From the NCBI GenBank assembly GCA_017468365.1, contig JAFUIS010000017.1:1-64000 (forward strand): a stretch of DNA of 64,000 nucleotides. Direction: 5' to 3'. The notes beneath the pieces are model-generated. The model was given only the letters and a program-made list of their open reading frames with translations, ran no database searches and was not told the DNA's origin. Numbering within the stretch: position 1 is the first letter of the stretch; every line of letters begins with the position of its first letter. Shown here in pieces: positions 1,346-63,073 of this stretch. The translations under genes and the position numbers were made by a program. The stretch is from Oscillospiraceae bacterium (GTDB lineage Bacteria > Bacillota > Clostridia > Oscillospirales > Ruminococcaceae).

Positions 1346-1380
1346 CAAAAAAAGCCCTGACTTTCGTCAGGGCTTTTTTG
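1346..1380 (-). terminator. Intrinsic terminator after the 101-aa gene
   Basis: Stem AGCCCTGA/TCAGGGCT (1353-1374) flanked by A-run and T-run, so it can work in both directions. It separates the riboswitch-controlled gene from the next promoter, making that gene monocistronic. Confidence 0.85.
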
Positions 1381-1383
1381 TGC

Positions 1384-1689
1384 TCAGTTTTGAGCACGGC
1401 ATTTATACCACGCGGATCCGCCGTGCTCATCGGTTATTTTCTTATAATCTATCCGAAGATAGTTGGGGTACAGCTTTTTAAAATGCCGGGGCGAAGAAAA
1501 AAGCATTCCTTCGTTGAAACCGGTGATGAAGGAAACAGTGCGGTCCCGATGAAGCTTGACCGGCGATTTAAGTTTTTCCGGAAGGTCGAAGCCCAAAGAC
1601 CGAAGGTGATTTTTAAGGCGCTCTTCATCGGATTCTTCAAAGCTCAGGTAAATGACTTCGTATTTTTTTAAAAGCTGAGTGACGTCCAT
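1384..1689 (-). CDS. Unknown 101-aa protein under a SAM-type riboswitch
   Basis: Not recognised. A soluble, charged protein with no signal peptide or membrane segment; it opens MDVTQLLKKYEVIYL and contains a basic stretch around RHFKKLYPNYLRIDYKK. The ATG at 1689 has AAAGGAG eight bases upstream; a TTG two codons earlier is less likely. It stands alone: an S-box-like leader with attenuator (1729-1868) lies upstream and a strong terminator (1346-1380) lies downstream. Regulation by S-adenosylmethionine would place it in methionine, SAM or sulfur metabolism, but that is inference from the leader. Its last 50 bases carry three copies of the TGAGCAC word, one in each reading frame. Confidence 0.7.
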   Translation of the reverse strand: MDVTQLLKKYEVIYLSFEESDEERLKNHLRSLGFDLPEKLKSPVKLHRDRTVSFITGFNEGMLFSSPRHFKKLYPNYLRIDYKKITDEHGGSAWYKCRAQN

Positions 1690-1728
1690 TTGCAAAACTC
1701 CTTTTGTAATATTCCAAAAAAGAGCGCG

Positions 1729-1756
1729 AAAAAAGACCCATCGTTTCCGATGGGCC
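1729..1756 (-). terminator. Riboswitch expression-platform terminator
   Basis: On the minus transcript, GGCCCATCG/CGATGGGTC with a 4-nt loop and a T-run (1729-1734). The upstream CCGATGGG at 1792-1799 is perfectly complementary to its 5' arm CCCATCGG, giving mutually exclusive antiterminator and terminator forms. Confidence 0.8.
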
Positions 1757-1784
1757 TTTTTTCAGTCGTCAAAAAACAAATAAA

Positions 1785-1868
1785 AGGAAGTCCCATCGGT
1801 CAGGCATTAGCACCTTACGTTTGCAGGTTGCTGTGCGGTCACGGAGCCTGTCTCTCGCGCACTCTTTA
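1785..1868 (-). promoter_or_regulatory. S-box-like (SAM-I clan) riboswitch aptamer
   Basis: The minus transcript has the S-box core GCAACC (1826-1831), a P3 stem (AGGT/ACCT at 1825-1828 and 1812-1815) and then GGTGCTAATGCC. P2 is GTGCG/CGCAC (1858-1862 with 1833-1837) with GAG and GTGAC elements suggesting a kink-turn. The P2 loop CAGGC (1846-1850) is complementary to GCCTG (1801-1805), as expected for the S-box pseudoknot. P1 is poorly defined, so the subtype (SAM-I or SAM-I/IV variant) is uncertain. Confidence 0.72.
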
Positions 1869-1878
1869 TGGTGATTTT

Positions 1879-2840: not shown

Positions 2841-2846
2841 AAAAGA

Positions 2847-2873: not shown

Positions 2874-2883
2874 CTTTTGTTTT

Positions 2884-8081: not shown

Positions 8082-8111
8082 AGCGGTGCCGGTTCGGCAC
8101 CGCTTTTTTTT
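8082..8111 (+). terminator. Bidirectional terminator
   Basis: Stem AGCGGTGCCG/CGGCACCGCT with a 3-nt loop, flanked by A-run and T-run, between convergent genes. Confidence 0.9.
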
Positions 8112-10647
8112 ATTTCTTTTTAAAAAGGGCGAAAAAAGCGCTTATCAGCGGCACCGCAAACGAAAAACCCAGCACCGCGAGCATTGAATTCATATCAAGG
8201 GGAACAGTTTTGAAAATCGGACAGAGAGAAGGAACATAAACGGTGCTCAAAACGATGGCCGCGGAAGAAACCACCGCCCAGATAAGAGTGGGATTATTGA
8301 GAAAATCGATTTTGAAAAGGCTTCGGCTTTCGCTTTTGCATTCAAAAACGTGGATAAGCTGGGTAAAAACCAGCGAAACAAAGGCTGCCGTCCTTGCGCT
8401 TTCAACCGAACCCGAAAACCTGAGCACCGTTGTGAACGCTCCGAGCACAGAAAGCCCCAAAAGAACGCCCCGGGTAATTATGGTCCCGGCAAGGCCGTTT
8501 GAAAAAACGGATTCGCTGCGTTTTCGGGGAGTTTCGAGCATAACGTCGTCCTGGGGCGGGTCAAAAGAAAGGGCAATCGCGGGAATTCCGTCGGTGACAA
8601 GATTCACCATAAGAATCTGAATAGGAAGAAGCACCACCGGCATTCCCATGAGCATTCCAAAGAACATTGTCACCACTTCGCCGATGTTGCAGGAAAGCAG
8701 ATAGCGGATAAATTTTCGGATATTGCCGTAAATAATGCGCCCTTCTTCCACCGCGGAAACAAGAGTGGAAAAATCGTCGTCCAGAAGAACCAGTCCCGAG
8801 GCTTCACGGGTGACGTCGGTACCGTTTTTGCCCATGGAAACGCCGATATCGGCTTCTTTTACCGCAGGGGCGTCGTTTACTCCGTCGCCGGTCATGGCGA
8901 CAATGTCGCCGCGTTTTTTAAGGGCGCGAACGATTTTGAGTTTGTGAGCAGGGGTGACCCGGGCAAAAACGTTTTTGGTGCTCACCGCGGCAGAAAATTC
9001 ACCTTCGGAAAGGCGGTCGATTTCTTTTCCGGTGATGACTTCGCCTTTTTTGTCGGCGATGCAAAGCTTTTGAGCAATGGCAAAAGCGGTTTCAGGATGA
9101 TCGCCGGTTATCATAACGGTGCGAATGCCCGCCGCCTTACATTTGAGCACCGATTCTGCCGCGCCTTTTCGCGGCGGATCCATAAGTCCGCAAAGACCGA
9201 GAAAAACAAAGTTTTCTTCGGCAATTTTTTTGTCCGTCTGTTCTTTATATCCAAGAGCGAGCACCCTGAGGGCGCCCGCCGCCATTTCGGAAAGGCGGGC
9301 TTTTATTTCGGAAAGGTCGTTTTTTGTAAGGGGGAGCACCTTTTCACCCGCAAGTTTTTTGGTACAAAGGGGAATGAGCACGTCCGGGGCGCCTTTTGAA
9401 AAAACAAAGGCGCCGCCGCCTTTTTTTTGCACCGAAACGGACATGAGTTTTCGGGCGGAATCGAAAGGAATTTCGCCGGTGCGTAAAAAATCGCTTTTTG
9501 CCGAAGAAAGATTTCCAAAATCCGCCGCCATTTTTAAAAGGGCGGCTTCCGTTGGCTCACCGCTTATTTTTTGAGCACCGACCTCTTCGGCGTTGTTGCA
9601 AAGGGCGGCGCAAAGAAAAAGAAATTCCATCGAACCGCGGTTTTTTGAAAAAGAATCCGCCGCGATTTTTTGACCGGAGGGAAGATAAACCTCCGTTACG
9701 GTCATGCGGTTTTCGGTAAGAGTGCCGGTTTTATCGGAGCAGATGACGTTTGCGCAGCCAAGGGTTTCGACGGAATGGAGCTTTCGGATAAGGGCGTTTC
9801 GCTTGAGCATCCGCGAAACCGCAAGGCCGAGCGAAATGGTGATAACGGCGGTGAGCCCTTCGGGAATAGCCGCCACCGAAAGGGAAAGACCGGTGAGGAA
9901 CATATCGAAAGCCGGCTCACCCCTAAGAATACCCGTCAGGGTTACGATAACACATATGAGAAGGCAGCCCACGGCGATATACTTGCTGAGCACCGAAAGC
10001 TTTTGCTGCAAGGGTGTAAGCTCGGCTTTCGTCTCTTTGAGCATGTCGGCAATCTTTCCCATCTGGGTGTTCATTCCGGTGGAAAAAACTTCGGCTTCGC
10101 CGTGACCCGAAACCGCGGCAGTGCCCATATAAACGCAGTCTTCCCGAAGGGAAGAAAGGTCGCCGCTTTTAAAAACCTTCTTTTCCGCAGGAAGTGATTC
10201 ACCCGTGAGCATGGATTCATCGGTAAAAAGACCGCCGGAAAAGGTCACCTTTCCGTCCGCGGGGATTTTTGAACCGGGAGTGAGCACCATTATATCCCCG
10301 GGAACGATTTTTGAAGCGGGGATTTCAACTTTCACTCCGTCGCGATAAACGGTTGCCTTTGGCGAAGAAAGAGCTTTGAGCTTTTCAAGGGTGCGCTCGG
10401 TTTTATATTCCTGGGAAAAACCGATGAGAGCGTTTATAAAAACTATCGCCATAATGGTTACGGAATCCACAAATTCGCCCATAAAAACCGAAACCGCCGC
10501 CGCGGCAAGAAGGATAAGAGTCAGAAGATCCCTGAACTGGCCGAAAAAGATTTTTGCGGCGCTTTCTTTTTTATTTGAAACCAAAAGGTTTTCTCCGTGT
10601 TTTTCCAAAAGTTCGGCGGCCTTTCGGCTCGAAAGTCCTTTTTGCAT
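8110..10647 (-). CDS. Cation-transporting P-type ATPase (type II, Ca2+-like)
   Basis: 845 aa. Order: N-terminal cation ATPase domain (about 1-70), actuator domain with TGES (148-151), M4 motif AAIPEGLTAV (about 259-268), phosphorylation site DKTGT at Asp305, hinge GDGVNDAPA, and M6 motif LVTDGIPAIAL. PEGL in M4 and N-x-x-TDG in M6 fit P2A/P2B calcium or Ca/Mn pumps of the plasma membrane; the usual PEGLP is PEGLT here. The start at 10647 follows a GGGGGGC site and trims about 49 implausible codons. It is divergent from rmuC. Confidence 0.92.
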   Translation of the reverse strand: MQKGLSSRKAAELLEKHGENLLVSNKKESAAKIFFGQFRDLLTLILLAAAAVSVFMGEFVDSVTIMAIVFINALIGFSQEYKTERTLEKLKALSSPKATVYRDGVKVEIPASKIVPGDIMVLTPGSKIPADGKVTFSGGLFTDESMLTGESLPAEKKVFKSGDLSSLREDCVYMGTAAVSGHGEAEVFSTGMNTQMGKIADMLKETKAELTPLQQKLSVLSKYIAVGCLLICVIVTLTGILRGEPAFDMFLTGLSLSVAAIPEGLTAVITISLGLAVSRMLKRNALIRKLHSVETLGCANVICSDKTGTLTENRMTVTEVYLPSGQKIAADSFSKNRGSMEFLFLCAALCNNAEEVGAQKISGEPTEAALLKMAADFGNLSSAKSDFLRTGEIPFDSARKLMSVSVQKKGGGAFVFSKGAPDVLIPLCTKKLAGEKVLPLTKNDLSEIKARLSEMAAGALRVLALGYKEQTDKKIAEENFVFLGLCGLMDPPRKGAAESVLKCKAAGIRTVMITGDHPETAFAIAQKLCIADKKGEVITGKEIDRLSEGEFSAAVSTKNVFARVTPAHKLKIVRALKKRGDIVAMTGDGVNDAPAVKEADIGVSMGKNGTDVTREASGLVLLDDDFSTLVSAVEEGRIIYGNIRKFIRYLLSCNIGEVVTMFFGMLMGMPVVLLPIQILMVNLVTDGIPAIALSFDPPQDDVMLETPRKRSESVFSNGLAGTIITRGVLLGLSVLGAFTTVLRFSGSVESARTAAFVSLVFTQLIHVFECKSESRSLFKIDFLNNPTLIWAVVSSAAIVLSTVYVPSLCPIFKTVPLDMNSMLAVLGFSFAVPLISAFFALFKKK

Positions 10648-10718
10648 AAAAAAGCCCCCCGATAATTTTCTTTCGAAATTATATGCGCCTCTTGGTGCGA
10701 TTATGTCCCCGAAGAAAA

Positions 10719-10747
10719 TTGACAGAAAGACCTTATTATTATAAAAT
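10719..10747 (+). promoter_or_regulatory. Sigma-A promoter for rmuC
   Basis: TTGACA (10719-10724), a 17-nt spacer and TAAAAT (10742-10747), 31 bp before the rmuC start. Confidence 0.85.
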
Positions 10748-10778
10748 AAAGGATAGAATATTTTTACGGAGGTGCGCC

Positions 10779-12116
10779 ATGCCCGAAGTTTCATTGACCG
10801 TTCTCATAATAGTTGCCGTTGTTGCCCTTTTGGTGGGATTTTTTGCCGCCTGGGCTATTCAAAGCGGAAAAATCGTAAAACTTTCCGAAAACGAACAAAA
10901 AAAGCGCGAGGAGATTTTTTCTCAGTATACCGAAATGGAAAAATCTCTTGCCATAAAGGATATCGAACTTAAAAACGAAAGCGAGCGCCTTTTGAAGACC
11001 GAGGAAGAAAACGCCGCCCTTTCCGAAAAGGTTTCGAACCTTTCCGAAGCGCTTCGCACCGCTTCCGCAAAGGCTGCAGCCGTTGAGGAAAGCAACAAAA
11101 ACATCAAGGAATGGATAGACAAAGCCGAAACCGGCCTTAAAGATTCCTTTGCAAGCATTTCGAAGACCATTACCGAAAACAACAACAAGGTCTTCCTTGA
11201 AAGCGCCAACGACAAGGTGGGCGGAATCGTCACCCCGGTCAGCAACGAACTCAAGGAACTTCGCACCAAGGTGGAAGAGCTTGAAGCAAAGCGCGCTTCG
11301 GCTTACAGCGGACTTAACGAAAAGGTAGAAAGCCTTCAGAAACAGAACACCGAACTTAAAAACGCCACCGACCTTCTCAATTCCACCCTTAAAAACAACG
11401 CCCAGCGCGGAAAATGGGGCGAAGAACAGCTTCGCCGCATTGCGGAACTTGCGGGAATGGTGGAACACATCGACTTTGACGAACAGTCCGTCAACGCTGA
11501 CGGAAGCCGCCCCGATATGGTCATTCACCTTACCGGCGGAAGAAGCGTTCCCGTTGACAGCAAGGCGCCCATGAATTCCTATCTTCTTTATCTTGACGAT
11601 ACGGACGAGAGCGCAAGGGCAAAACACCTTTCGGAACACGTCAAGGCCCTTCGCATGCATATCGACACCCTTTATAAAAAAGCCTATTGGAAGAGCGAAG
11701 AGCGCAGCGTTGAAATGGTCGCAATGGTCGTTCCTTATGAAAGCGGACTTTCCGCCGCTTTTGCCACCGACCGCGAAATTTTTGGCTACGCCATGGAAAA
11801 GAACGTTCTTCTTCTTTCGCCCATGACTTTCTATGCCTTCCTCAAATCCGTTTCCATCGGCTGGCAGGAAAACGCCATGAGCCAGAACGCCAAGGAAATT
11901 GCGAAGCAGAGCAAGGAGCTTATCAACCGCTTCGGTGTTTTCTTCAAGTATTTTGAAAATATCGACAAGGCGCTTACCACCGCAAGGGACAATTACGACA
12001 AGGCGGTGGGTTCTTATAACCGCCGTTTGCTTCCGGCGTTCAACCGCTTTGAGGTGCTTTCAAACGGCACCGAACCGGAAGCCGAAACTCCCGCCCTTCC
12101 GGACGAAAACCTTTAA
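10779..12116 (+). CDS. rmuC: DNA recombination protein RmuC
   Basis: 445 aa. An N-terminal membrane helix (about 5-25) is followed by a long coiled coil (30-200, rich in E, K, A) and the RmuC nuclease-like domain. That domain includes RGKWGEEQL, RPDMVIHLTGGR and VPVDSKAPM (about 240-290). RmuC proteins limit rearrangements at repeated sequences and are thought to be membrane-anchored nucleases of the restriction-endonuclease-like fold. The ATG at 10779 has ACGGAGG upstream. Confidence 0.93.
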   Translation: MPEVSLTVLIIVAVVALLVGFFAAWAIQSGKIVKLSENEQKKREEIFSQYTEMEKSLAIKDIELKNESERLLKTEEENAALSEKVSNLSEALRTASAKAAAVEESNKNIKEWIDKAETGLKDSFASISKTITENNNKVFLESANDKVGGIVTPVSNELKELRTKVEELEAKRASAYSGLNEKVESLQKQNTELKNATDLLNSTLKNNAQRGKWGEEQLRRIAELAGMVEHIDFDEQSVNADGSRPDMVIHLTGGRSVPVDSKAPMNSYLLYLDDTDESARAKHLSEHVKALRMHIDTLYKKAYWKSEERSVEMVAMVVPYESGLSAAFATDREIFGYAMEKNVLLLSPMTFYAFLKSVSIGWQENAMSQNAKEIAKQSKELINRFGVFFKYFENIDKALTTARDNYDKAVGSYNRRLLPAFNRFEVLSNGTEPEAETPALPDENL

Positions 12117-14377: not shown

Positions 14378-15654
14378 TTTCTGTTCTCCTTTTGTTTAAC
14401 AAGATTGTCGGTAAGCAAAAAGCAGTCTTTCGAAAAATTTTCGAAGGAATGTTTTTCGGCAAAAGAAAAATTTAATTGTCCAAGGGTGTTTCTGTCCGCT
14501 TCGGACATTTCAAAAAGCGCTTTTATTCCAAGCCGAAGACTTTCTTTGCTGCGGGGCTTTGTGATAACGCAGCCGCCGGTTTTTCGGAAAAAATCCGAAA
14601 GCTTTTCGGAAGAAGCCATTATCGGTTTTTTTGAAAGAAAAGCGGAAAAACAGCGTTCGCTGTCAAAGGCGCTGCCTTTTAAGACTCCGTTTTCCGAAAG
14701 ATAGACTGCGTCTGCTCCGGAAAGCACAAAAGAAGCTTCGCCCGCAGGCGGTTCTTCAAGAAAAAACACGTTGGTGATGCCGTTTTCCGAAACAAGCTTT
14801 TTATAAAAAGCTTCCTTTGTTCCGGAAGAAAGAAAAACCAACGCAAGGCTTTTTCCAAAGGTCGAGGCGGAAAAAATAAGTTCGCCAATGGAAAAACAGT
14901 CTTCCAGCGGAAGAGCGGAAGCGAGCACAAAGGTTTTTCCTTCCCGAAAGGCAAAAACCTTTTCAAAAAGCTCCTTGGCTTTTTCAGAAGGCTGTTTTTC
15001 TTCAAAAACCGGCGGAAGTTCAAGCGGAAAAATGTTTTTTACTCCGGAAAAGTTTTTTGAAAAATCCGGAAAAAGAGCGAGCACAGCATCGCTTTCATCC
15101 GAAGCCATAAAAAAAGCCTTTTTGAGCACCGTGAGCACGGGACTTATGGATGAAACGCTTTTTGTGTTTTTCAAGAGCTTTTTTGGGTCGCAAAGCGCCA
15201 GAGTTATGAGCACGGCGCGGCTTTCTTTTGCGATCCTTTTGCAGGAAGCAAAAGCAAAGGGAAAAGTTCCGCCGCAAAAAACCGCATCCGGTGAAAAAAG
15301 TCCGCCGACGGCTTTTGAGTTTTTTGAAACGGCGTCGCAAAACTGCGAAATTTCCCGAAGGGGAAAAGCGCCCTTGCTTTCTTTTTTAATCTTGACGGAA
15401 AGGAAGTTCATTCCCTCCGCCGAAGAAAACTCAAAAACCGGCGCCGAAAGATTTTCGCAAAGCTTTGGGCAGACAAAAAGAACGTTTGCGCCAAGACGCG
15501 AAAATTCCTTTGCCAAAGCAAGGTTTCGCTTTCGGTTTTGTAAAATTATCCGAAAAAGCTCAGTTTTTTCAAAAGAGGCGCTTTTTTTAAAATCAAAAAG
15601 CGCATCCGGGTCGATAAAAATTACGTTCAAGGGAAAATCAATCCGCCTTTCCAA
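14374..15654 (-). CDS. Glycosyltransferase-like (GT-B fold) protein, divergent
   Basis: 426 aa. The middle (DAVFCGGTFPFAFASCKRIAK, then a DPKKLLKN segment and ASDESDAVLALFPDFSKNF) resembles the N-terminal Rossmann half of GT4 glycosyltransferases. The C-terminal half has ADAVYLSENG...KKPIMASS, the region where donor-binding residues normally sit, but the usual E-x7-E motif is not clear. It may be a degenerate or specialised enzyme. The start is uncertain: only TTG codons are available, at 15654 or, better placed after GGAAAGGCGG, at 15630. Four-base overlap with coaX. Confidence 0.5.
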   Translation of the reverse strand: MERRIDFPLNVIFIDPDALFDFKKSASFEKTELFRIILQNRKRNLALAKEFSRLGANVLFVCPKLCENLSAPVFEFSSAEGMNFLSVKIKKESKGAFPLREISQFCDAVSKNSKAVGGLFSPDAVFCGGTFPFAFASCKRIAKESRAVLITLALCDPKKLLKNTKSVSSISPVLTVLKKAFFMASDESDAVLALFPDFSKNFSGVKNIFPLELPPVFEEKQPSEKAKELFEKVFAFREGKTFVLASALPLEDCFSIGELIFSASTFGKSLALVFLSSGTKEAFYKKLVSENGITNVFFLEEPPAGEASFVLSGADAVYLSENGVLKGSAFDSERCFSAFLSKKPIMASSEKLSDFFRKTGGCVITKPRSKESLRLGIKALFEMSEADRNTLGQLNFSFAEKHSFENFSKDCFLLTDNLVKQKENRK

Positions 15655-19301: not shown

Positions 19302-20306
19302 TTAGAAGCCGGCTATCATGACTTCAAAATCGCCGGAAGAAAGGTTTTTATCCGAAACGATTTTGATATCATAGCCGAGGGTTTTCCAATGTTCAAGGTT
19401 GCTTTTGTGCTGGCCGCTGCATTTTGAAACGTCCGAGGGAGCGACGGAAAGAACGTAGCTTCCTTTAGGAAGGCGGGTGAGCATCGGCGCAATTTTTTTG
19501 CGGAAGCGAAGGCTTTCGCAAATTTCGCGGAAGGCGGGGTGATAGGGCCCCGCAACAAGGTTTTCTTCAAGAGAAGTTTCCGCATGAAGCCCAAGGCGGA
19601 TGACGTTTATGTTATAAAGTTCAAAAACGTCAAGAAGTTCGGCACATTCCGCCGCCGCTTCTTCGACCGTCTGGGGAACAAATTCGCCCTTTTCAAACCA
19701 CTTTGCCATAAGGGTGTTTTTGAGCACCAGGGTGGGATAGATGCGCATGGTTTCGGGTTTGAGGGAAGCAAATCTTGCGGCGGTCATAAGGTCGTCCTCT
19801 TTTGTGGAACCGGGCATTCCGGTCATCATCTGAAGTCCAAGATGAAAACCGGCGTTTTTGATAAGTTCGCAGGCCCTTTGGGTATCCGCAAAGGTGTGTC
19901 CCCGGCGGTTTTTCAAAAGGACTTCGTCATTCGAACTTTGCGCGCCCAGTTCAATGGAGGTAACGCCGTATTCTTTGAGCACCGCGAGCACCTCTTCGTC
20001 AATTGCGTCCGGACGGGTGCTGATGCGGATGCCGGAAAAAGCTTTTCGGTCGATCCATTTTTTTGCCGGCGCAAGAAGGCTTGTCATAAGTTCCCTTGGA
20101 ATCATGGTGAAACTTCCGCCGAAGAAAGCGATTTCCGCCTTTTCCGAAAAGCCGTGGAGTTCTCTTGCGGCTTTTTTAAGGGTTTTATCGATTTCTTCCG
20201 GGGTGGGAATTCCGCTTTCGCCGGTGATGGAATTCTGGTCACAGAATGAGCACCGGTGGGGACAGCCAACCATCGGAACAAAGAAAGCTACGTTTGCGTG
20301 TTTCAT
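19302..20306 (-). CDS. Elp3-like radical SAM protein
   Basis: 334 aa. The radical SAM cluster motif is C-x3-C-x2-C (GCPHRCSFC, about 14-22), followed by GGSFT and the radical SAM C-terminal region typical of Elp3-like proteins without the acetyltransferase domain. Relatives sit beside rnc and smc in many Firmicutes, often with unassigned function; tRNA modification is a reasonable guess. Its start overlaps the rnc stop by 4 nt. Confidence 0.88.
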   Translation of the reverse strand: MKHANVAFFVPMVGCPHRCSFCDQNSITGESGIPTPEEIDKTLKKAARELHGFSEKAEIAFFGGSFTMIPRELMTSLLAPAKKWIDRKAFSGIRISTRPDAIDEEVLAVLKEYGVTSIELGAQSSNDEVLLKNRRGHTFADTQRACELIKNAGFHLGLQMMTGMPGSTKEDDLMTAARFASLKPETMRIYPTLVLKNTLMAKWFEKGEFVPQTVEEAAAECAELLDVFELYNINVIRLGLHAETSLEENLVAGPYHPAFREICESLRFRKKIAPMLTRLPKGSYVLSVAPSDVSKCSGQHKSNLEHWKTLGYDIKIVSDKNLSSGDFEVMIAGF

Positions 20307-43660: not shown

Positions 43661-44185
43661 TTATTTGCAAAACAGCTCATCTTCTTCCCACTTCTCGGGA
43701 TTTTTGAAGATGTATTCCGAAATTTCATCATAAGCTTTTTTGTTTCTTATGATTTCATCGTAAAAAGATTTTTGCCAAAGTTTGTTACGTTTGTTTTCGG
43801 CAACAAATTTATTGTATTCTCTTGTTACCGAGGATTTGAAACCGCGAACCAACGAATGTAGGGAACGTCGTCCTCGACGTTCCGCCTCATCATTTGTCTG
43901 CGGTTGGTTTTTTATAATGATTATTCCGTGGATATGATTTGGCATCAAGCAAAACCAATCGGTTTCAATATTTTTATCAATTTCAGACATTTTTGCCCAC
44001 GAACGCAAAACAATTTCACCAATTGCGGTGGGGATCATTTTTTGCGGAACGCCGGGGACGGCGTTCCCTACGGTGGCTAACACGCATTTCCTTTCGTGCG
44101 TGCATATCGTTACAAAATAATATCCGTTTTTGCTGTAATCATATCCGTGTAAACGATGCTGTTTTCTTTTCGGAAAATCTTCCAT
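43661..44185 (-). CDS. REP-associated tyrosine transposase (RAYT, Y1/HUH type)
   Basis: 174 aa. RKQHRLHGYDYSKNGYYFVT opens the Y1 transposase domain, the HUH motif is HIHGI in FCLMPNHIHGIII, and the catalytic Tyr probably lies in AYDEISEYI. RAYTs are single-copy IS200/IS605 relatives that process REP palindromes. Two REP-like palindromes (43858-43885, 44044-44071) lie inside the coding sequence, encoding the VGNAVPGVPQ and AERRGRRSLH loops. ATG at 44185 is assumed, but an ATG at 44194 overlaps the lepA stop and there is no good ribosome site, so expression may depend on coupling to lepA. Confidence 0.87.
   Translation of the reverse strand: MEDFPKRKQHRLHGYDYSKNGYYFVTICTHERKCVLATVGNAVPGVPQKMIPTAIGEIVLRSWAKMSEIDKNIETDWFCLMPNHIHGIIIIKNQPQTNDEAERRGRRSLHSLVRGFKSSVTREYNKFVAENKRNKLWQKSFYDEIIRNKKAYDEISEYIFKNPEKWEEDELFCK
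43858..43885 (+). repeat. REP-like palindrome inside RAYT (copy 1)
   Basis: GTAGGGAACGTCG, loop TCCT, CGACGTTCCGC; a perfect 9-bp stem. Opposite orientation to copy 2. Confidence 0.7.
44044..44071 (-). repeat. REP-like palindrome inside RAYT (copy 2)
   Basis: On the minus strand GTAGGGAACGCCG, loop TCCC, CGGCGTTCCGC. It shares head, stem ends and tail with copy 1 and compensatory changes keep the stem paired. Confidence 0.7.
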
Positions 44186-44186
44186 A

Positions 44187-45992
44187 TCAGTCATCGTCAA
44201 GTTTGAGCACCGCCATAAAGGCTTCTTTCGGAAGCTCGACGGAGCCTATGCGGCGCATTTTCTTTTTACCTTCCTTCTGTTTTTCAAGAAGCTTCTTTTT
44301 ACGGGAAATATCGCCGCCGTAGCATTTTGCAAGAACGTCCTTGCGGAGTGCTTTGATGGTTTCGCGGGCGATTATCTTTCCGCCGATGGCTGCCTGGACC
44401 GGAACTTCGAAAAGCTGGCGGCTGATGTTATCGCGAAGACGCTCGACCATTCTTCTTGCTCTGGGATAGGCGTTATCCGCAAAGACCATCATGGAAAGGG
44501 CGTCGACCATTTCGCCGTTGAGAAGGACATCAAGTTTCACAAGCTTGCTGGCTTTGTATCCGCAGGGTTCATAATCGAAGGAAGCGTAACCTCTGGTGCG
44601 GCTTTTAAGCGCATCAAAAAAGTCATAGATTATTTCGCCCAGGGGAAGTTCGTAATGAACTTCGCAGCGGTCGGCTTCAAGATATTTGGTATCCTTATAA
44701 ATTCCGCGGCGTTCCTGACAAAGCTCCATAATGCTTCCGATATACTGGGTGGGAGTAAAAATGGAAGCGCGGACATAAGGTTCTTCAGTGGAATCGATTA
44801 TCGCCGGGTCGGGATAGTTGGTGGGGTTGTCAAGTTCAAGGGTGCGTCCGTCGTTGAGGTGAAGTTTGTAAACAACGCTGGGCGCGGTGGTGATAAGGTC
44901 AAGGTTATATTCGCGTTCAAGCCTCTCAAGGATTACTTCCATGTGAAGAAGTCCAAGGAATCCGCAGCGGAAGCCGAAGCCCAGAGCGGCGGAAGTTTCG
45001 GGTTCAAAGCTCAGGGAAGCATCGTTAAGGATGAGTTTTTCAAGCGCGTCGCGAAGGTCGCCGTATTTTGCGCCGTCAAGGGGATAGATACCCGCATAGA
45101 CCATGGGGTTGACCTTTTTGTAACCGGGAAGAGCCTCGGCTGCGGGATTTTCCGCAAGGGTAACGGTGTCGCCCACGGCGGTATCCGCAACGGTTTTGAT
45201 GGAAGCGGTGATGTAACCGACTTCGCCGGCGCGAAGTTCTTCGCAGGGAACAAGGCGGGTGGCGCCCATATAGCCGATTTCGACGATGTCGAATTCGGCG
45301 CCGGTGGCCATCATTTTGATGCGGTCGCCGGAACGGAGAACGCCGTCAACGATTCGGACGTAAACGATTACGCCGCGGTAGCTGTCGTAAATGGAGTCAA
45401 AAATGAGCGCTTTGAGCGGGCCTTCGTCGTTGCCTTTCGGAGAAGGGATGCCTTCGACGATGGCTTCGAGCACGGAATGGATATTAACGCCGGTCTTTGC
45501 GGAGATCTGCGGAGCATCAAGAGCGGGGATTCCGATGATGTCCTCGATTTCGTGCGCAACTCTGTCAGGGTCCGCAGCGGGAAGGTCGATTTTGTTGATG
45601 ACCGGAACGATTTCGAGGTTGTGGTCAACGGCAAGATAGGTGTTGGCAAGGGTCTGTGCCTCAACGCCCTGTGAAGCATCAACGATGAGCACCGCGCCTT
45701 CGCATGCTGCAAGAGAGCGCGAAACCTCATAGTTGAAGTCGACGTGTCCGGGAGTATCGATGAGGTTGAAAACATATTTGTTTCCGTCGTCGGCGGTATA
45801 GTCAAGACGCACCGCGCGGGATTTTATGGTGATTCCGCGTTCGCGTTCGATATCCATGTTGTCCAAAAGCTGCTCTTCCATTTCGCGGGGAGTTACTGCC
45901 TGGGTGTTTTCAAGGATTCGGTCGGCAAGGGTGGATTTGCCGTGGTCGATATGTGCGATTATACAAAAGTTTCTTATGTTTTCGTTGGGCAT
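44187..45992 (-). CDS. lepA: Elongation factor 4 (LepA)
   Basis: 601 aa, full length. GTPase motifs: AHIDHGKST (G1), GITIKS (G2), DTPGHVDF (G3), NKIDLP (G4). The LepA-specific C-terminus contains YHKQP-like ligands and the [23 protein letters not shown] end. It promotes back-translocation or ribosome assembly under stress. AGGAGG precedes the ATG. Its final codons GTG CTC AAA contain a TGAGCAC word. Confidence 0.97.
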
Positions 45993-48019: not shown

Positions 48020-49897
48020 ATGGCAAAGAAACAAAATCCCCTTGAACTTCCGGTATATCTTTTCCACCAGGGAACGAACTATCGGGCATACGAGTTTCTC
48101 GGCGCACATAAAATCAAAGGCAGCAGAAAAAAAGGCGTGATGTTCCGCACCTGGGCTCCCAACGCAAAATCGGTTTCCGTCGTGGGCGACTGGAACTATT
48201 GGTCAAAGGGCGCGGACCCAATGCATAAAATAAGCGACGGCGTATGGGAATGCCGCGTTGACGGACTTGACGAATACGTCCGCTATAAATTCGCCATCGA
48301 AACCCAGAGCGGCGAAATCGTTGAAAGGTCCGACCCTTACGCTTTCCATACCGAGACAAGACCCGCCACCGCTTCGGTGCTTTGCGACCCGAAGTATAAA
48401 TGGCACGACAAAAAATGGCTTGAGCATCGCGCTTCATGGGATATGTACCACAGCCCGGTGAACATTTACGAGGTGCATCTCGGCTCCTGGAAAAAATATC
48501 AGGACGGAAACTTTTTTGATTACAGAAAGACCGCCGATGAGCTTGCGGCTTATGCAAAAGAGATGAACTATACCCACGTCGAGCTTCTTCCGGTAACGGA
48601 ACATCCCTTCGACGGCTCCTGGGGATATCAATGCCTGGGCTATTTTGCACCCACCAGCCGCTACGGAAAACCCGAGGATTTCATGTATTTTGTCGATACC
48701 CTTCACAGAGCGGGCATCGGCGTCATCATGGACTGGGTGCCGGCGCATTTTCCCAAAGACGAAGGCGGCCTTATGAACTTTGACGGCGCGCCCTGCTATG
48801 AATACAAAAATCCCCTTATGGGTGAGCGCGAGGACTGGGGCACGAAGGTCTTTGACTTCGGAAGAAACGAAGTGCGCTGTTTCCTTGCCTCCTCCGCAAT
48901 GTACTGGATAGAAAAATACCATATCGACGGAATCCGCGTTGATGCCGTTTCCTCAATGCTTTACCGCGACTACGGAAAAAACGGCAACGAATGGGAACGC
49001 AACCAGTTTGGCGGAAGAGAAAACATCGAAGCCATCGGAATGCTCCGTGATATCAACACCGCCGTCAACGCCGAATATCCCGGCGTAATGATGGTGGCGG
49101 AAGAATCCACCTCGTTCCCGATGGTATCCCGTCCTGCAAAGGACGGCGGACTCGGCTTCAACTTCAAATGGAACATGGGCTGGATGAACGACACCCTTTC
49201 CTATATGTCCCTTGACCCCATTTACCGCCAGCATGAGCACGGAAAGCTCACCTTCGGAATGATGTATGCTTTTTCCGAAAACTTCATCCTTCCGTTCTCT
49301 CATGACGAGGTCGTTCACGGAAAATGCTCCCTCATCGGAAAAATGCCCGGTGAATATGACCAGAAGTTTGCGGGACTGCGCGCGCTTTTCGCATATATGA
49401 CCGGTTTCCCGGGCAAAAAACTTCTTTTCATGGGTCAGGAATTCGGCCACTTCATCGAATGGGACGAAAAGAGAGAACTTGACTGGTTCCTTCTTGAATA
49501 TGAAAGCCACCGCAAACTTCAGCAGCTTTCCAAAGCGCTGAACGAGCTTTATAAAACCCACCCCGAATGTTGGGAAAACGACGAAAACTGGGAAGGCTTC
49601 CAGTGGGCGAACTGCAACGAAGCCGGAAAGAACGCCCTTGCCTTCCGCCGTATTGCAAAAGACGGAAGCCAGCTTCTTTTCGCTTTCAACTTCTGCCCCA
49701 ACGAATATAAAGGCTTCCACGTTGAAGTTCCGGACGACAGCAAGTGGGAAGAGATACTTTCCACCGACGAAGAACGTTTCGGCGGAAGCGGCTGGTATAA
49801 AAACGGCGTAAGAGAAAGCTGGCACGAAGGTTATTCTTCCTTCGCCGCCGTCGACCTTGCACCTTTCTCCGCAGCGGTCTTAAAAAAGCTTCCCTGA
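48020..49897 (+). CDS. glgB: 1,4-alpha-glucan branching enzyme
   Basis: 625 aa. An N-terminal CBM48 domain (AHKIKGSRKKGVMFRTWAPN...SVVGDWNYW) precedes the GH13 barrel. Conserved regions include GVIMDWVPAHF, DGIRVDAVSSML with the nucleophile Asp, MMVAEEST with the acid Glu, and FSHDEVVHGK. It forms alpha-1,6 branches in glycogen. The start follows AAAAAGGAG. First gene of glgB-glgC-glgD-glgA. Confidence 0.97.
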   Translation: MAKKQNPLELPVYLFHQGTNYRAYEFLGAHKIKGSRKKGVMFRTWAPNAKSVSVVGDWNYWSKGADPMHKISDGVWECRVDGLDEYVRYKFAIETQSGEIVERSDPYAFHTETRPATASVLCDPKYKWHDKKWLEHRASWDMYHSPVNIYEVHLGSWKKYQDGNFFDYRKTADELAAYAKEMNYTHVELLPVTEHPFDGSWGYQCLGYFAPTSRYGKPEDFMYFVDTLHRAGIGVIMDWVPAHFPKDEGGLMNFDGAPCYEYKNPLMGEREDWGTKVFDFGRNEVRCFLASSAMYWIEKYHIDGIRVDAVSSMLYRDYGKNGNEWERNQFGGRENIEAIGMLRDINTAVNAEYPGVMMVAEESTSFPMVSRPAKDGGLGFNFKWNMGWMNDTLSYMSLDPIYRQHEHGKLTFGMMYAFSENFILPFSHDEVVHGKCSLIGKMPGEYDQKFAGLRALFAYMTGFPGKKLLFMGQEFGHFIEWDEKRELDWFLLEYESHRKLQQLSKALNELYKTHPECWENDENWEGFQWANCNEAGKNALAFRRIAKDGSQLLFAFNFCPNEYKGFHVEVPDDSKWEEILSTDEERFGGSGWYKNGVRESWHEGYSSFAAVDLAPFSAAVLKKLP

Positions 49898-51153: not shown

Positions 51154-52265
51154 GAGATAAAGATGTTCTCGGAATCATTGTCTGCAACATGCACGATGAC
51201 CTAATTCCCCAGCTTACCGCCAGCCGTACTCTCGGTTCCATTCCTTTCGGCGGAAGATACAGAATGATCGACTTTGCCCTTTCCAACATGACCAACTCCG
51301 GAATCGAAGACGTGGGCCTTGTTCCAAGCAAGAACTACCAGAGCCTTATGAACCACGTCGGTAACGGTCAGGAATGGGATATGTCCAGAAAAAACGGCGG
51401 CCTTTCAATTCTTCCGCCCTATGCGGGTGAACGCGGAGTTTACCGCGGAAGAATGGAAGCCCTTTACGGAATCCGCGAATACATAAAAGCAAGCGACGCC
51501 GCAAACGTTGTTCTTTCCGACAGCGACGTTGTTGCAAACATCGACCTTCGCCCTGTCATCCGCGAACACGAAGAAAGCGGCGCGGATATCACCCTTGTTT
51601 ATAAATACAGCGAAGTTTTCAAAGAGAAAAAACAGTGCGCCGCACTCTTCTTTGACGAATGCGGAAAGCTTCTTGACCTTTATCTCAACCCCGAGCTTGA
51701 CGGAAAACAGAACATCTATCTTGATATCGCAATAATCAAGAAACCCGTTCTCGACGAACTTATTGCCGAATGTGCAAGCAAAGATGAGCACAGCTTTGTC
51801 CACAGCGTGCTCATGGCAAAAAAAGGCGTGCTCAACATCCGCGGCTACCGTTTTGACGGCTGGTGCAACAAGCTCACCGGACTTCGCAACTATCTTGACG
51901 CAAACCTTGCCCTTCTTGATGCCGATGTAAGAAAATCCCTCTTCCCGGCAGAAAGACCTATCTATACCAGAGTCCGCGACGAAGTTTCCGCAAAATACGG
52001 CGAAAACGCAAAAGTTTCCCGCACTCTTGTTACCGACGGCTGCCACATTGACGGCGAAGTTGAAAACAGCGTTCTTTTCCGCGGCGCCACTATTGAAAAA
52101 GGCGCAAGCGTAAAAGGCTGCGTTCTTATGCACAATGCATTCGTAGGCGAAGGTGCGACCCTTGAATGGGTAATCACCGACAAAAACGTTGTTATCCCCG
52201 CCGGAACCCACCTTGCCGGTTCCGAAAAATATCCGCTTTATATCCCGAAGGATACCGTCCTTTGA
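51150..52265 (+). CDS. glgD: Glucose-1-phosphate adenylyltransferase, GlgD subunit
   Basis: 371 aa. Paralog of GlgC with [20 protein letters not shown] but lacking the GGQGSRL nucleotide loop, as expected for the Firmicute GlgD subunit that modulates GlgC. A C-terminal beta-helix is present. ATGA overlap with glgC couples translation at a comparable level. It contains three TGAGCAC words within about 50 bp around 51.8 kb. Confidence 0.95.
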
Positions 52266-52292: not shown

Positions 52293-53711
52293 ATGAACGT
52301 TCTTTTTGCGGCAAGCGAAGCAAGACCTTTTATCGCTTCCGGCGGACTTGCAGACGTCATCGGCGCACTGCCGAAGGCTCTTAACGGCGCAGGCTGCGAT
52401 TGCAGAGTCATTCTTCCGCTTTATTCCGATATTCCGGATAAGTTCCGCGCAGAGATGAAAAAAGTCTGTGACTTCAAAGTCTGGCTCGGTTGGAGAAACC
52501 AGTACTGCGGACTTTTTGAAACAAAGCTTTCGGGAGTCACTTTCTATTTCATCGACAATGAATATTACTTTGCAAGAAATGGAATTTACGGCCACTATGA
52601 CGACGGCGAGCGCTTTGCCTATTTTTCCATGGCGGTGCTTGAAGCGGTAAAACATATGGATTTTGACCCCGAGGTCATCCATTGTCACGATTGGCAGACC
52701 GGACTTGTTCCCGTTTTTCTCAATCTTTTCTTTGCCGATGAGGAAAAACTTGCGAACACCAAAACCGTTTTCACCATCCACAATATCCAGTACCAGGGAA
52801 ATTACGATATGTATTTTGCCGGCGACGTTCTCGGAATTCCCGAAAACAGACGCGGACTTGTGGAATATGACGGCCGCTGCAACTTTATGAAAGCAGGCAT
52901 CGACCTTTGCGATGCGGTTTCCACCGTAAGCCCCACCTATGCGGAAGAAATTCAGGACCCCTGGTTTGCATGGGGACTTGACCGCCTTCTCAGAGAGAAA
53001 AAATATAAACTTTCCGGAATCCTCAATGGTATCGACGTCGTAAGCTATGACCCCGTTTCCGACAAGGATATTCCCGCCACCTTCTCTAAATATGACCTTT
53101 CGGGCAAGGCAAAATGCAAGGAAGAACTCCAGAAAGAGCTTGGTCTTGCAGTTGATCCCGATTCCATGGTCATTGGGATGGTCGGAAGACTTGTTTCTCA
53201 CAAAGGCCTTGACCTTGTAAGAGCCGTTTGCGACAGAATCCTTGAAATGCCGGTACAGATAGCGGTTCTCGGAAGCGGCGAATCCGCTTTCGAAAGCTTC
53301 TTCCGTTATATGCAGGAAAAATATCCCGGCAGAGTCAGCTTTGTCTGCGGATTCATTCCGCCCCTTGCAAGAAGGATCTATGCGGGTTCCGACGTTTTCC
53401 TTATGCCCAGCAAGAGCGAACCCTGCGGTCTTGCCCAGATGATCTCTCTTCGCTACGGAACCGTTCCGATAGTAAGAGAAACCGGCGGACTTAAAGATTC
53501 CATCAAGGATATCGGCGGAATCAAAGGCAACGGCTTCACCTTCCAGACTTATAATGCCGACGATATGCTCGACGCGGTGCGCCGTGCTCAAAACCTTTAT
53601 TCCAACGGCGAAAGATGGAAAGAAGCGGTGCTCAATGCCCTTTCCTGCGATTTCAGCTGGAACCGCAGTGCTCAGACCTATATCGGTCTTTATGAAAGCG
53701 TGCTCAAATAA
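52293..53711 (+). CDS. glgA: Glycogen synthase (ADP-glucose type)
   Basis: 472 aa, GT5. N-terminal VLFAASEARPFIASGGLADV, HCHDWQTGL and C-terminal MVGRLVSHKGLDL plus SKSEPCGLAQMISLRYGTVP with the catalytic Glu (SEPCG). It transfers glucose from ADP-glucose to the growing glucan. The ADP-glucose loop that reads K-x-G-G-L in E. coli is A-S-G-G-L here; I recall similar variants in clostridial enzymes. AAGGAGG precedes the ATG. Confidence 0.96.
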   Translation: MNVLFAASEARPFIASGGLADVIGALPKALNGAGCDCRVILPLYSDIPDKFRAEMKKVCDFKVWLGWRNQYCGLFETKLSGVTFYFIDNEYYFARNGIYGHYDDGERFAYFSMAVLEAVKHMDFDPEVIHCHDWQTGLVPVFLNLFFADEEKLANTKTVFTIHNIQYQGNYDMYFAGDVLGIPENRRGLVEYDGRCNFMKAGIDLCDAVSTVSPTYAEEIQDPWFAWGLDRLLREKKYKLSGILNGIDVVSYDPVSDKDIPATFSKYDLSGKAKCKEELQKELGLAVDPDSMVIGMVGRLVSHKGLDLVRAVCDRILEMPVQIAVLGSGESAFESFFRYMQEKYPGRVSFVCGFIPPLARRIYAGSDVFLMPSKSEPCGLAQMISLRYGTVPIVRETGGLKDSIKDIGGIKGNGFTFQTYNADDMLDAVRRAQNLYSNGERWKEAVLNALSCDFSWNRSAQTYIGLYESVLK

Positions 53712-57523: not shown

Positions 57524-57561
57524 AAAAAAAGCCTCCGCCACAGGTTTTCTGTGACGGAGGC
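57524..57561 (-). terminator. T-box regulatory terminator
   Basis: On the minus strand a 13-14 bp stem (57561 to 57531) with one mismatch and a T-run at 57524-57530, between the T-box sequence and cysE. Confidence 0.88.
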
Positions 57562-57810
57562 GGTAAAAAACAAAAATTATCGCGGTTCCACTCCGGTTTG
57601 TCGCTTTGTCCGAATCGCTTGAATCCGGTGCCCTTTAACGGTGGCTTTCCGCAAAACGATACTTGCCGTGCTCAAAAAAACGGCTTTCCCGCTTCGTGCT
57701 CATCGGGTGCATTTCGCCGTGCTCAAACAAGCGAACTTTCAGCTTTGCGTTCGCCTCTCTGGTGAATGGGCGGGTCGGTTACTTCTCCCGGTCATCGCAT
57801 TTAAAATATT
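57524..57810 (-). promoter_or_regulatory. T-box leader, cysteine specific
   Basis: The T-box proper is GTGGAACCGCG (57581-57592 region). Stem I shows GGGAGAAGTAA, then CAGAGAGG and GCTGAAAG. The specifier loop GAAATGCACC carries TGC (57709-57711), the Cys codon. The antiterminator bulge TGGA suits the U discriminator of tRNA-Cys. Uncharged tRNA-Cys would favour antitermination and cysE-cysS expression. Three TGAGCAC words lie in this non-coding leader (57668, 57696, 57719). Confidence 0.92.
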
Positions 57811-60708: not shown

Positions 60709-60772
60709 TGTTTCCTCCGAAAAAAGGATTTTTATGAGGATATAATATCACAAAACGGATAAAATTGCGATA

Positions 60773-60801
60773 TTTACCGAAAGAGATATTTGTGATAAAA
60801 T
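60773..60801 (+). promoter_or_regulatory. Promoter of the galactokinase-like gene
   Basis: TTTACC (60773-60778), a 17-nt spacer and extended TGA-TAAAAT (60796-60801). Confidence 0.65.
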
Positions 60802-60833
60802 AATTTCGTAAAAAAGGGAAAGGAGGAGATTTT

Positions 60834-61919
60834 GTGTACGAATTTTTTGTTGGCGGAAGAACGGAACTGGGCGGAAACCACACCGATCACCAGGGCGGAT
60901 GCGTTCTGGGTGCTTCGGTCGAACAGGGGATAAGAGCTTTTGCAGAGCGTTCAAAAAGCGACCTTATCACCGTTGAATCCGAAGGCTTCGGAAAAATCGA
61001 AATGGAAATCGGAGATACCGACCCAAGAGCCGAAGAAGCCGAAACTCCCGCAGCTCTCGTTCGCGGAATCATGAACTGCTTTATTGAAAGCGGAAACGTC
61101 TTTGGCGGATTTGAAGCAAAAATCACCTCCGATATCCCGGTGGGAAGCGGAATTTCCTCTTCCGCCGCCTTCGAAGTTCTTATCGGAAAAATCATCAGCG
61201 GACTTTATTTTGAAAATTCAGTTCCGGCAATAAGGCTTGCCCAGTTCGGAAAAATCGCCGAAAACGATTATTTCGGAAAACCCTGCGGACTTATGGACCA
61301 GCTTATCTGTGCCGTAGGCGGAACGGTCTTTGCGGATTTTTCCGACCCGGAAATGCCCCAATACCGAAAAATCGGTTTTGATTTCGGAAAAAGCGGTTAT
61401 TCCGTTGCGATAATCGACACAAAAACCAGCCATGCGGATTTTACCGAAGATTACGCCATGATTGTAAAAGACATGGGACTTGTGGCCTGGAACATGGGTC
61501 ACACCCTTCTTTCCGAAGGTGACGAGGCGGAATTTATCGCCCAGTTCCCGATTTTGCGTCAGCGCTGCGGCGAAAAAGCCGCACTTCGCGCGCTGCATTA
61601 TTATGAGGAAACCAGAAGAGCAAGCGAAGAAGCCGAGGCCCTTGAAAGCGGCGACTTTAAAAAGTTCCTTGAAATCTACCGCGAATCCGCAATAAGTTCG
61701 GAAGAAAAGCTTAAAAACATCGTTTCAGAAAAAGAACCCCAAAAGCTTCTTGAAAAAGCGATTTTTGCCGCAAGGGATTTTCTTGGAAAAGAGGGTGCGG
61801 CAAGAGTTCACGGCGGAGGCTTTGCTGGAACGGCTCAGGCGATAGTTCCTACAGAGCTCGCGCCGGATTTTGCCGATGCCATGGAAAAACAGGGTTTCGG
61901 AGTAATGTTCGTTCTTTGA
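60834..61919 (+). CDS. Galactokinase-like GHMP kinase, short N-terminus
   Basis: 361 aa. Motif 1 is GGRTELGGNHTDHQ at residues 7-20, motif 2 is PVGSGISSSAAFEV and motif 3 is VHGGGFAGTAQAI. These fit the clostridial galactokinase family, whose members usually have a few dozen residues before motif 1; here the protein starts almost at it. GTG at 60834 with AAAGGAGGAG is well supported and a promoter lies just upstream, so the short form seems genuine. Galactose or another sugar may be the substrate. Confidence 0.82.
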   Translation: MYEFFVGGRTELGGNHTDHQGGCVLGASVEQGIRAFAERSKSDLITVESEGFGKIEMEIGDTDPRAEEAETPAALVRGIMNCFIESGNVFGGFEAKITSDIPVGSGISSSAAFEVLIGKIISGLYFENSVPAIRLAQFGKIAENDYFGKPCGLMDQLICAVGGTVFADFSDPEMPQYRKIGFDFGKSGYSVAIIDTKTSHADFTEDYAMIVKDMGLVAWNMGHTLLSEGDEAEFIAQFPILRQRCGEKAALRALHYYEETRRASEEAEALESGDFKKFLEIYRESAISSEEKLKNIVSEKEPQKLLEKAIFAARDFLGKEGAARVHGGGFAGTAQAIVPTELAPDFADAMEKQGFGVMFVL

Positions 61920-61982
61920 TTGACCTTCGGCGGCAATAATGATAAAATAAATCAGACCCTTATGAAAGGCGGTTTTTAAAAA

Positions 61983-62249
61983 GTGGATATGGTAATTCTT
62001 TATTACATAGCCGTCAACGTCGTTGCTTTCGCAATGTACGGCGCGGATAAATTTTTCGCCAAAAACGATATGTGGCGAATTTCCGAAAAAGCGCTTCTGG
62101 GCGTTGCGGCAATAGGCGGCGCTTTCGGTGCTTTTGCGGGAATGGAAGTTTTTCGCCACAAGACCAAGCACGCAAAATTCACAATAATCGTTCCGGTGCT
62201 CATGGCGGCGCATGCGGGATTTCTGGTCTATTATTTTAAACAGCAATGA
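61983..62249 (+). CDS. DUF1294 small membrane protein
   Basis: 88 aa with two or three helices and the family features NVVAFAMYGADKFFA, RISEKALLGVAAIGGAFGA and FRHKTKHAKF. Function unknown. GTG start at 61983 after AAAGGCGG. ATGA overlap with rlmA. Confidence 0.9.
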   Translation: MDMVILYYIAVNVVAFAMYGADKFFAKNDMWRISEKALLGVAAIGGAFGAFAGMEVFRHKTKHAKFTIIVPVLMAAHAGFLVYYFKQQ

Positions 62250-63073
62250 GCAGCTTCAGATGTCCGCTTTGTAAAAGCGACCTTTTAAAAACCGACCGTT
62301 CTTTAAGATGTGAGCACGGCCACTGCTTCGATATCTCGGCAGAAGGTTATACCCACCTTCTTCCGGCGAACAAAATGAATTCAAAAGTTCCCGGCGACAG
62401 CAAGGAAATGGCGGCTTCCCGTTCAGCTTTTCTTGACGGCGGTTATTATGAGCCACTTAAAAAAGCGCTTGAAGAAACGGTGCTCAGCCTTTCGAAAAAA
62501 GAAGATACCGCGGTGCTGGATTGCGGCTGCGGCGAAGGTTATTATACCGCCGGCGTTGCAAAAGAGCTGAAAAACCGCTTTCCAAAGGCAAAAATCGCAG
62601 GTTTTGATATAAGCCGCCCTTCGGTGAAACGTGCGGCAAAACGCACCAAGGAAGCCGAATTTGCCGTGGCTTCGGTTTTCGATATTCCGGCAAAAGATGA
62701 AAGCTTCGATATCCTTTTAAACGTTTTCAGCCCGCTTTGCATCGGCGAATTCAGCCGCGTGCTCAAAAGCAAAGGATATTACGTTTACGTTGTGCCTGCG
62801 GCACGCCACCTTTGGCAATTAAAGGCGGCGATTTACGATACCCCTTATGAAAACAGGGAAGTGGATATCCCTTACGAAGGCTTTGAGCACGTTGAAACGA
62901 AGCGCCTTCGCTATAAGACCCTTATCCGCACGAAAAACGATATTTTTTCGCTTTTCCAGATGACCCCGTATTACTGGAAAACCTCCGCAAAAGGCGCCGA
63001 AAAGCTTTCAAAGCTTGAGACCCTTGAAACGGAAGTTGCCTTTGATATCCATATTTACAGAAAGAAATCATAA
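62246..63073 (+). CDS. rlmA: 23S rRNA guanine-N1 methyltransferase, RlmA family
   Basis: 275 aa. An N-terminal zinc ribbon (FRCPLCKSDL...LRCEHGHCFD) is followed by GDSKEMAASRSAFLDGGYYEPL and a Rossmann methyltransferase domain with LDCGCGEGYY. This matches RlmA(I)/(II), which methylate G745 or G748 of 23S rRNA. Translationally coupled to the DUF1294 gene. Confidence 0.9.
   Translation: MSSFRCPLCKSDLLKTDRSLRCEHGHCFDISAEGYTHLLPANKMNSKVPGDSKEMAASRSAFLDGGYYEPLKKALEETVLSLSKKEDTAVLDCGCGEGYYTAGVAKELKNRFPKAKIAGFDISRPSVKRAAKRTKEAEFAVASVFDIPAKDESFDILLNVFSPLCIGEFSRVLKSKGYYVYVVPAARHLWQLKAAIYDTPYENREVDIPYEGFEHVETKRLRYKTLIRTKNDIFSLFQMTPYYWKTSAKGAEKLSKLETLETEVAFDIHIYRKKS

Follow-up and report, generated by a model that had tools for sequence, protein, structure and literature searches.

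The stretch described here (the window: 64,000 nucleotides, positions 1 to 64,000 of contig JAFUIS010000017.1, assembly GCA_017468365.1, from an Oscillospiraceae bacterium) carries, among others, the genes addA, addB, dnaG, lepA, glgB and smc, genes for a P-type ATPase and a radical-SAM protein, and a T-box leader, and it is strewn with copies of the 7-bp word TGAGCAC. There are 58 exact copies, 32 on the forward and 26 on the reverse strand, which confirms the count of about 58 (TGAGCAC or its complement GTGCTCA) made in an earlier note on this DNA, here called the original prediction. The chance expectation given there, 7–8 copies, was too high: dinucleotide shuffles of the window (n = 100) give 3.6 ± 1.8 copies with a maximum of 8, and TGAGCAC is the most enriched 7-mer in the window under this model. 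The next base is C in 28 copies, G in 26, A in three and T in one, so that the copies not continuing with C or G, put at about four, number exactly 4 of 58 (54 do continue in this way). The patchy distribution also noted before is evident in the six exact sites in each of addA and addB, the four in dnaG and their absence from smc. The variant TGAGCAT, counted earlier as about 12, is present 18 times.

The enrichment extends to the whole genome. The assembly (1.86 Mb in 33 contigs) contains 1000 copies of TGAGCAC (494 forward, 506 reverse) and 27 of the reversed word (9 and 18), far from a chance frequency; the 641 copies in the 1,186,310 bases that were read extrapolate to 1007, in agreement with this count. 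In 724 genes predicted by a simple gene caller of our own on 786 kb of the genome, synonymous-codon shuffling (20 shuffles) predicts 51 copies, with a maximum of 65, against 350 observed, the top score among all 7-mers; the original prediction had named such a shuffle as a possible refutation, and its claim survives. The same comparison in sibling genomes gives 128 observed and 20.7 expected. The word occurs in every one of the five reading frames in which it introduces no stop codon, as expected from the earlier statement that several frames and no single codon pair are involved, although 176 of the 350 coding copies do read GTG-CTC in frame. Called genes hold 350 of 407 copies, and the density is 0.61/kb in non-coding and 0.51/kb in coding DNA. 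TGAGCAT is moderately enriched in coding DNA (227 against 82 expected from the codon shuffle).

The new result beyond enrichment is the grammar in which the copies are arranged, and helical phasing formed no part of the original prediction. The copies clump into small arrays, within which they lie, measured from centre to centre of the 8-mer, a whole number of helical turns (10.55 bp) apart, whatever the mixture of orientations. Across 1.19 Mb of the genome, the 256 pairs lying 7–110 bp apart have a best period of 10.56 bp (nR2 88.6) and the 240 pairs lying 110–330 bp apart a period of 10.55 bp (nR2 64.0). With the window's contig removed, the values are 10.57 bp for 220 pairs (nR2 77.9) and 10.56 bp for 214 pairs (nR2 53.6), respectively; the window alone gives 10.54 bp for 24 pairs at 7–110 bp (nR2 10.3), and six siblings pooled, with genome G011 left out, give 10.6 bp for 59 pairs (nR2 27.7). 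A pair was called in phase when its distance differed by at most 2.64 bp from an integral number of turns, for which a ratio of 1∶1 in to out of phase is expected. Exact pairs are found at ratios of 184∶33 at 7–66 bp, 42∶3 at 66–120 bp, 117∶20 at 120–220 bp, 77∶21 at 220–330 bp, 54∶39 at 330–430 bp and 84∶76 at 430–700 bp; the register holds to about 330 bp, fades between 330 and 430 bp and is gone beyond about 430 bp. Up to 330 bp, the ratio is 43∶5 in the window and 366∶69 outside its contig.

The register is a property of this word at the DNA level rather than of codons. Among 300 words matched for abundance, the best other word scores 8.8 and overlaps the motif, and when 882 6-mers were scanned for register in 786 kb, with same-strand pairs only, the top places went to four sub-words of the motif (18.8–21.8), ahead of 6.7 for the next word. 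At 7–110 bp, same-strand and inverted pairs are phased alike (cosR 0.59 and 0.58), as are distances within one gene that are divisible by three (0.65) and those that are not (0.60); pairs with at least one non-coding copy give 0.46. Positions near real sites where the codons would permit the word but do not use it are barely phased (cosR 0.12, nR2 3.0, n = 207). A codon or dicodon origin is rejected by the codon shuffle and the phasing controls, both of which agree with the earlier reading of TGAGCAC as a word at the DNA level. Other words, such as TTCCGAA, GGCGGAA and CGGCGGA, likewise lie far above the codon shuffle in the coding regions of this genome, but the 14 top words shown for the register scan include none of the three.

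Three variants, CGAGCAC, TGAGCAT and TGAGCAG, clump around the exact copies in the same register; the consensus is YGAGCA[C>T,G]S, with a preceding T preferred. When exact copies and these variants are joined at gaps of up to 65 bp, 786 kb contain 94 pairs, 57 triplets, 10 quadruplets and 2 quintuplets, together with 405 singles, 142 of them exact. Orientation is free: in 76 triplets from the genome and its siblings, each with an exact copy and taken irrespective of phase, the eight possible orders occur 11, 11, 10, 10, 10, 9, 9 and 6 times. Distances fall into two modes, since pair counts dip at 9–10 turns and a second mode lies near 16 turns. Positions permitted by the codons are filled in 183 of 220 cases if in phase with a neighbour no more than 66 bp away and in 9 of 34 if out of phase; more than 330 bp from any copy, the filled fraction is 0.06–0.10.

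In the contigs of at least 35 kb (607 kb in all), 94 in-phase elements lie about 6 kb apart, from which about 290 are extrapolated for the genome. Their spacing is more even than random, with a coefficient of variation of 0.62 against 0.86 ± 0.08 (none of 500 simulations was as even), and with a wider joining distance 86 elements give 0.54 against 0.77 simulated. Copies within genes are present across all gene deciles. Intergenic density is 1.91/kb in convergent regions, 0.43/kb in divergent and 0.45/kb in co-directional ones, and 27 of the 35 co-directional intergenic copies lie within 60 bp of the upstream stop. Genes with the highest codon adaptation index have 0.12 copies/kb, against 0.75–0.89/kb in the two lowest quintiles; as the ratio of observed to codon-shuffled copies drops only from 7.4–7.9 to 3.5, this effect is partly one of codon composition. 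Twenty-three of the 30 most site-rich genes were scanned (31 of 740 genes, spanning joins between stretches, were left out), and four of these are polA, addA, addB and recF, alongside sporulation, tRNA-modification and transport genes. No bias toward genome-maintenance genes is claimed, because 10 of the 20 length-matched site-free controls were scanned and gyrA is among them.

Many of the sites in the window are conserved. A long series of 11 exact copies (31048–33867) runs through addA and addB, and a further exact copy (34926–34932, +) lies in the first third of addB. Where the amino acids compared are equal, no base of the 7-mer has changed in 40 of 41 cases in addB (control 0.377) and in 26 of 33 in addA (control 0.35), and an out-of-frame copy in addB is kept in all 11 relatives; with Val-Leu codons as the control, the difference in addB is strong (42 of 44 against 14 of 35). 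The dnaG array (40902–41086), which has four exact copies and one TGAGCAG variant, is recognizable in seven of seven orthologs, with some gains and losses, and the variant itself is found in six of the seven. A 259-aa open reading frame (orf) that we read as trmH-like contains a tight triplet (−,−,+) at 26733–26792, two sites of which are kept in four of four orthologs (one as TGAGCAT in L001) and the third in two of four, once as TGAGCAT. Ortholog comparison was uninformative for smc and the P-type ATPase gene, with no ortholog among the loci, and for rnc and the radical-SAM gene, with one each.

The remaining sites vary in density and setting. A tight array of three exact copies (−,+,−; 1380–1429), spaced 11 and 32 bp from start to start, is at the 3′ end of a 103-aa orf (1384–1695, −), and a terminator-like hairpin, recognized by eye, adjoins it. 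At 2605–2676 a TGAGCAT variant, a CGAGCAC variant and an exact copy (−) are spaced by 22 and 43 bp. Eight exact copies plus variants form a loose series (8243–10287) inside the P-type ATPase gene (8110–10794, −), two CGAGCAC variants and three exact copies an array (14922–15213) inside a 426-aa orf without an NCBIfam match, and five exact copies and variants a loose series (19478–20991) that spans the radical-SAM gene and the next gene. Lone exact copies are found at 25013–25019 (−), in a gene that we read as topA-like, and at 49234–49240 (+) in glgB. In lepA there are exact copies at 44204–44210 (+) and at 45686–45692 (+), the latter with a CGAGCAC variant at 45467; a short orf (43661–44200, −) directly adjoins the first of these and by eye resembles transposases associated with repetitive extragenic palindromes. 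Two further groups lie in called genes, a tight triplet (+,−,−) with spacings of 22 and 21 bp (51785–51834) and, at the end of its gene, four same-strand copies (53584–53706, −) with spacings of 44, 40 and 32 bp. The three copies at 57668–57725 (−; spacings 28 and 23 bp) had been placed inside a T-box leader, and a match to RF00230 at 57553–57804 (−) does span them, with 74.9 bits and an E-value of 1.9e-16, under the 93-bit gathering score. Five exact copies of mixed orientation form a loose series at 62196–62890.

Phased arrays are restricted to the genus within the samples searched. The AddA relatives at 64–78% identity (12 of 41 loci) belong to Oscillospiraceae assemblies from gut samples, by their titles mostly ruminant. 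All 15 genomes of the genus contain TGAGCACS in 321–1118 copies, with 1–10 copies of the reversed control except in G011 (32), and phased inverted pairs are present in 14 of them, at 13–38 each, the exception again being G011, which has none; 11 of its copies yield a single pair up to 330 bp apart. This genome (L099, L100) is assigned to the same genus, yet, besides lacking phased pairs, it has a G+C content of 0.61 (40 kb read) and strong genes of the PilB/PilT-like and T2SSF families, which suggests a sister lineage or a misplaced genome. Among 394 genomes sampled from the order, the numbers of phased inverted pairs are 38 in the genome studied here, eight in G297, two in G284 and one in each of nine others; among 398 from the phylum, they are 38 and one in each of fifteen others. 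G297 belongs to another family of the order, and its eight (contigs C2 and C15) involve a palindrome, GTGCTCACGTGAGCAC, identical at the five places listed, which looks like the sites of a local regulator. TGAGCACS also looks raised in number in some relatives of other genera, with up to 534 copies (G049), but its copies do not clump there: 893 kb from 69 loci, two of which (L103 and L104) consist entirely of N, hold 2 pairs no more than 200 bp apart.

The features observed directly—enrichment, variants, phasing, free orientation, two distance modes, even spacing, many conserved sites and restriction to one genus in the samples—lead us to propose, with a probability of about one half, that the word makes up chromosome-wide docking elements of a multivalent DNA-bridging protein. 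We infer the existence of such a protein, its oligomeric state, the looping and the architectural role. YGAGCA[C>T,G]S would be the site for one monomer of a sequence-specific protein whose oligomer carries several DNA-binding heads on flexible tethers, and a working element would be a group of at least two such sites, all facing one side of the helix. Neighbouring sites, 1–6 turns apart, would be occupied next to each other, and those separated by some 11–33 turns would be joined through a small DNA loop, so that orientation would be free and helical phase would not. Some 290 such elements, one per ~6 kb, would serve to anchor, bridge or loop the chromosome; they would lie within genes as much as between them and be infrequent in divergent promoter regions and in highly expressed genes. 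Phasing with free orientation requires a reader of double-stranded DNA that approaches from one side at several sites. Of such readers, two classes are left: proteins inside the cell that bridge or loop DNA, and surfaces that bear receptors. Looping is favoured by the dip at 9–10 turns, and torsional fluctuation of free DNA could account for the loss of register beyond ~330 bp.

Several observations weigh against a bridging protein. The Val-Leu codon control is weak in addA (22 of 30 against 15 of 27), the addB copy at 34926 (alignment column 1068) is kept in none of 11 relatives, one addA copy is shared only with L001, and the exact copy in the topA-like gene is absent from all three orthologs. 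Many tight divergent pairs, of which 19 of 23 are not fully coding, are probably terminator-like hairpins. A search for the binder by charge, repeats and codon bias, made by eye in gene lists from the ~64% of the genome that was read, gave no fitting candidate. HU is present in 13 of the 15 genus genomes and is ordinary, and a ParB paralog, distinguished by score, is present in eight of the 15 and is therefore no universal binder. This additional ParB-family protein, grouped by score and profile range, is ~357 aa long in the present genome (G000:C24:162844-163113), and similar proteins of 306–357 aa occur in seven other genomes of the genus.

A flat layer of receptors would also yield phasing with free orientation, but alone it predicts no dip at 9–10 turns. 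With such a layer forcing the sites onto one side, the arrays could be watermarks for uptake of self DNA, read by several surface receptors at once, an explanation that we regard as unlikely. Even spacing of ~1000 copies in 1.86 Mb, the convergent 3′-end preference and copies in recombination genes also fit an uptake word, and copies are present in polA, recF, addAB and the comEC gene. In Table 4 of PMC1852404, closely spaced opposite pairs of uptake words in Neisseria meningitidis concentrate tail-to-tail, like the convergent copies here. comEC is found in 15 of 15 genus genomes, but also in 60 of 61 relatives irrespective of the word. Of the 15 genus genomes, which are drafts 73–98% complete, 12 lack any T2SSF match (present in the other three) and have T2SSE scores of at most 33 bits, and all 12 have phased pairs; six of the 12 pass the Pfam T2SSE cut-off of 24.9 bits through orfs of ~290–320 aa, which by our reading may be SpoIIIAA-like. 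G011 presents the converse, strong PilB/PilT-like ATPases and T2SSF without phased pairs. The genome studied here has a small operon with T2SSF, pilin-like small proteins and an ATPase that we read as PilT-like (L263, 8740–12494). Pilus-based uptake is disfavoured because the 12 genomes without strong pilus genes nevertheless carry phased pairs. The uptake word suggested in the original prediction is upheld in density, even spacing and 3′-end preference, which resemble those of the Neisseria DNA uptake sequence (DUS) and the Pasteurellaceae uptake signal sequence (USS), but not in the genes for the machinery. We consider it improbable that phased arrays allow some machine for defence, repair or packaging to distinguish own from foreign DNA; a chromosome-wide, evenly spaced word restricted to one genus in the samples searched would suit such a self-marking or packaging role. 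A viral scan gave at least 120 stretches, and among the 80 listed, 79 contain one pair each.

Transcriptional roles, as terminators or regulator sites, are in our view very unlikely: intergenic copies do gather at 3′ ends and tight divergent pairs could form hairpins, but 350 of 407 copies are inside called genes, in all deciles, and divergent regions have few (0.43/kb). Two further candidates of the original prediction fit poorly. TGAGCAC is a short asymmetric word such as a methylation or restriction system might use, but this would leave the enrichment, the arrays, the phasing and the degenerate phased variants without a reason, and we give it hardly any credence. A Chi site for AddAB can practically be dismissed, even though AddAB is present, its genes carry 12 sites and the word is short and of an abundance similar to that of Chi; replication polarity is slight when local GC skew is used as a proxy on unordered contigs (261 against 225 of 486 sites, 155 of 641 having been dropped for weak skew), and neither the helical phasing nor the arrays are accounted for. 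Chi is read on single strands, and such reading gives no reason for the double-helical register seen here. Nor do we see any appreciable chance that the arrays are a by-product of proteins in which Val-Leu recurs every 3.6 residues of an amphipathic helix with an ~11-bp period; half of the coding copies read GTG-CTC, but inverted pairs, pairs at distances not divisible by three and non-coding pairs are similarly phased, and amphipathic periodicity is rejected because unused codon-permitted positions near real sites show almost no phasing.

Known systems share some of these features. DUS and USS also number many hundreds of copies, are non-palindromic and are often genic; the word described here differs in its multi-copy arrays in helical register with free orientation, and in the lack of strong pilus genes in 12 of 15 genus members. 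Even spacing of DUS and USS has been cited and also disputed, as has their 3′ bias, in the part of PMC1939737 that bears on this, and as far as the available text of PMC1626085 goes, spacings of roughly one turn occur in USS only within one extended motif, a core with flanking segments. H-NS, in the portion of PMC5418058 that concerns the negative regulatory element of proU, has two identical high-affinity sites ~10 turns apart, helically phased, which facilitate bridging. Helically phased sites are thus common to both cases, but that of proU is a single regulatory region with an AT-rich motif, whereas here a GC-containing word forms ~290 elements, mostly in coding DNA. matS, parS, Noc sites and KOPS are likewise short sites repeated along the chromosome for a dedicated protein; the first three are palindromic and far fewer, and KOPS is strand-polar. 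We know of none of these that needs helical phasing of many copies, and to our knowledge abundant words such as DUS, USS and Chi are read as single sites. No report of word arrays in helical register was found among open PMC papers searched by title or the start of the abstract, and for TGAGCAC itself the 30 papers listed of 10,722 are, to judge by their titles, on unrelated subjects.

Register, free orientation, two distance modes and coherence over ~330 bp amount to a grammar written in the genome, and the geometry of a DNA–protein machine should therefore be inferable from sequence alone. If the role is architectural, this would be a bacterial chromosome with DNA-encoded loops imposed on protein-coding genes. 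We tentatively suggest, at somewhat less than even odds, that a clade of gut Oscillospiraceae has a chromosome-folding code written in its sequence: ~290 multi-site elements at ~6-kb intervals, mostly in protein-coding genes, that would be readable only when several 8-bp words lie on one side of the helix, and would be read by a putative multivalent protein making mini-loops or bridges. Scanning genomes for words that keep a 10.5-bp register would be a general way to such machines. Elsewhere in the window, a SAM riboswitch lies at 1791–1874 (−), with a match at its gathering score.

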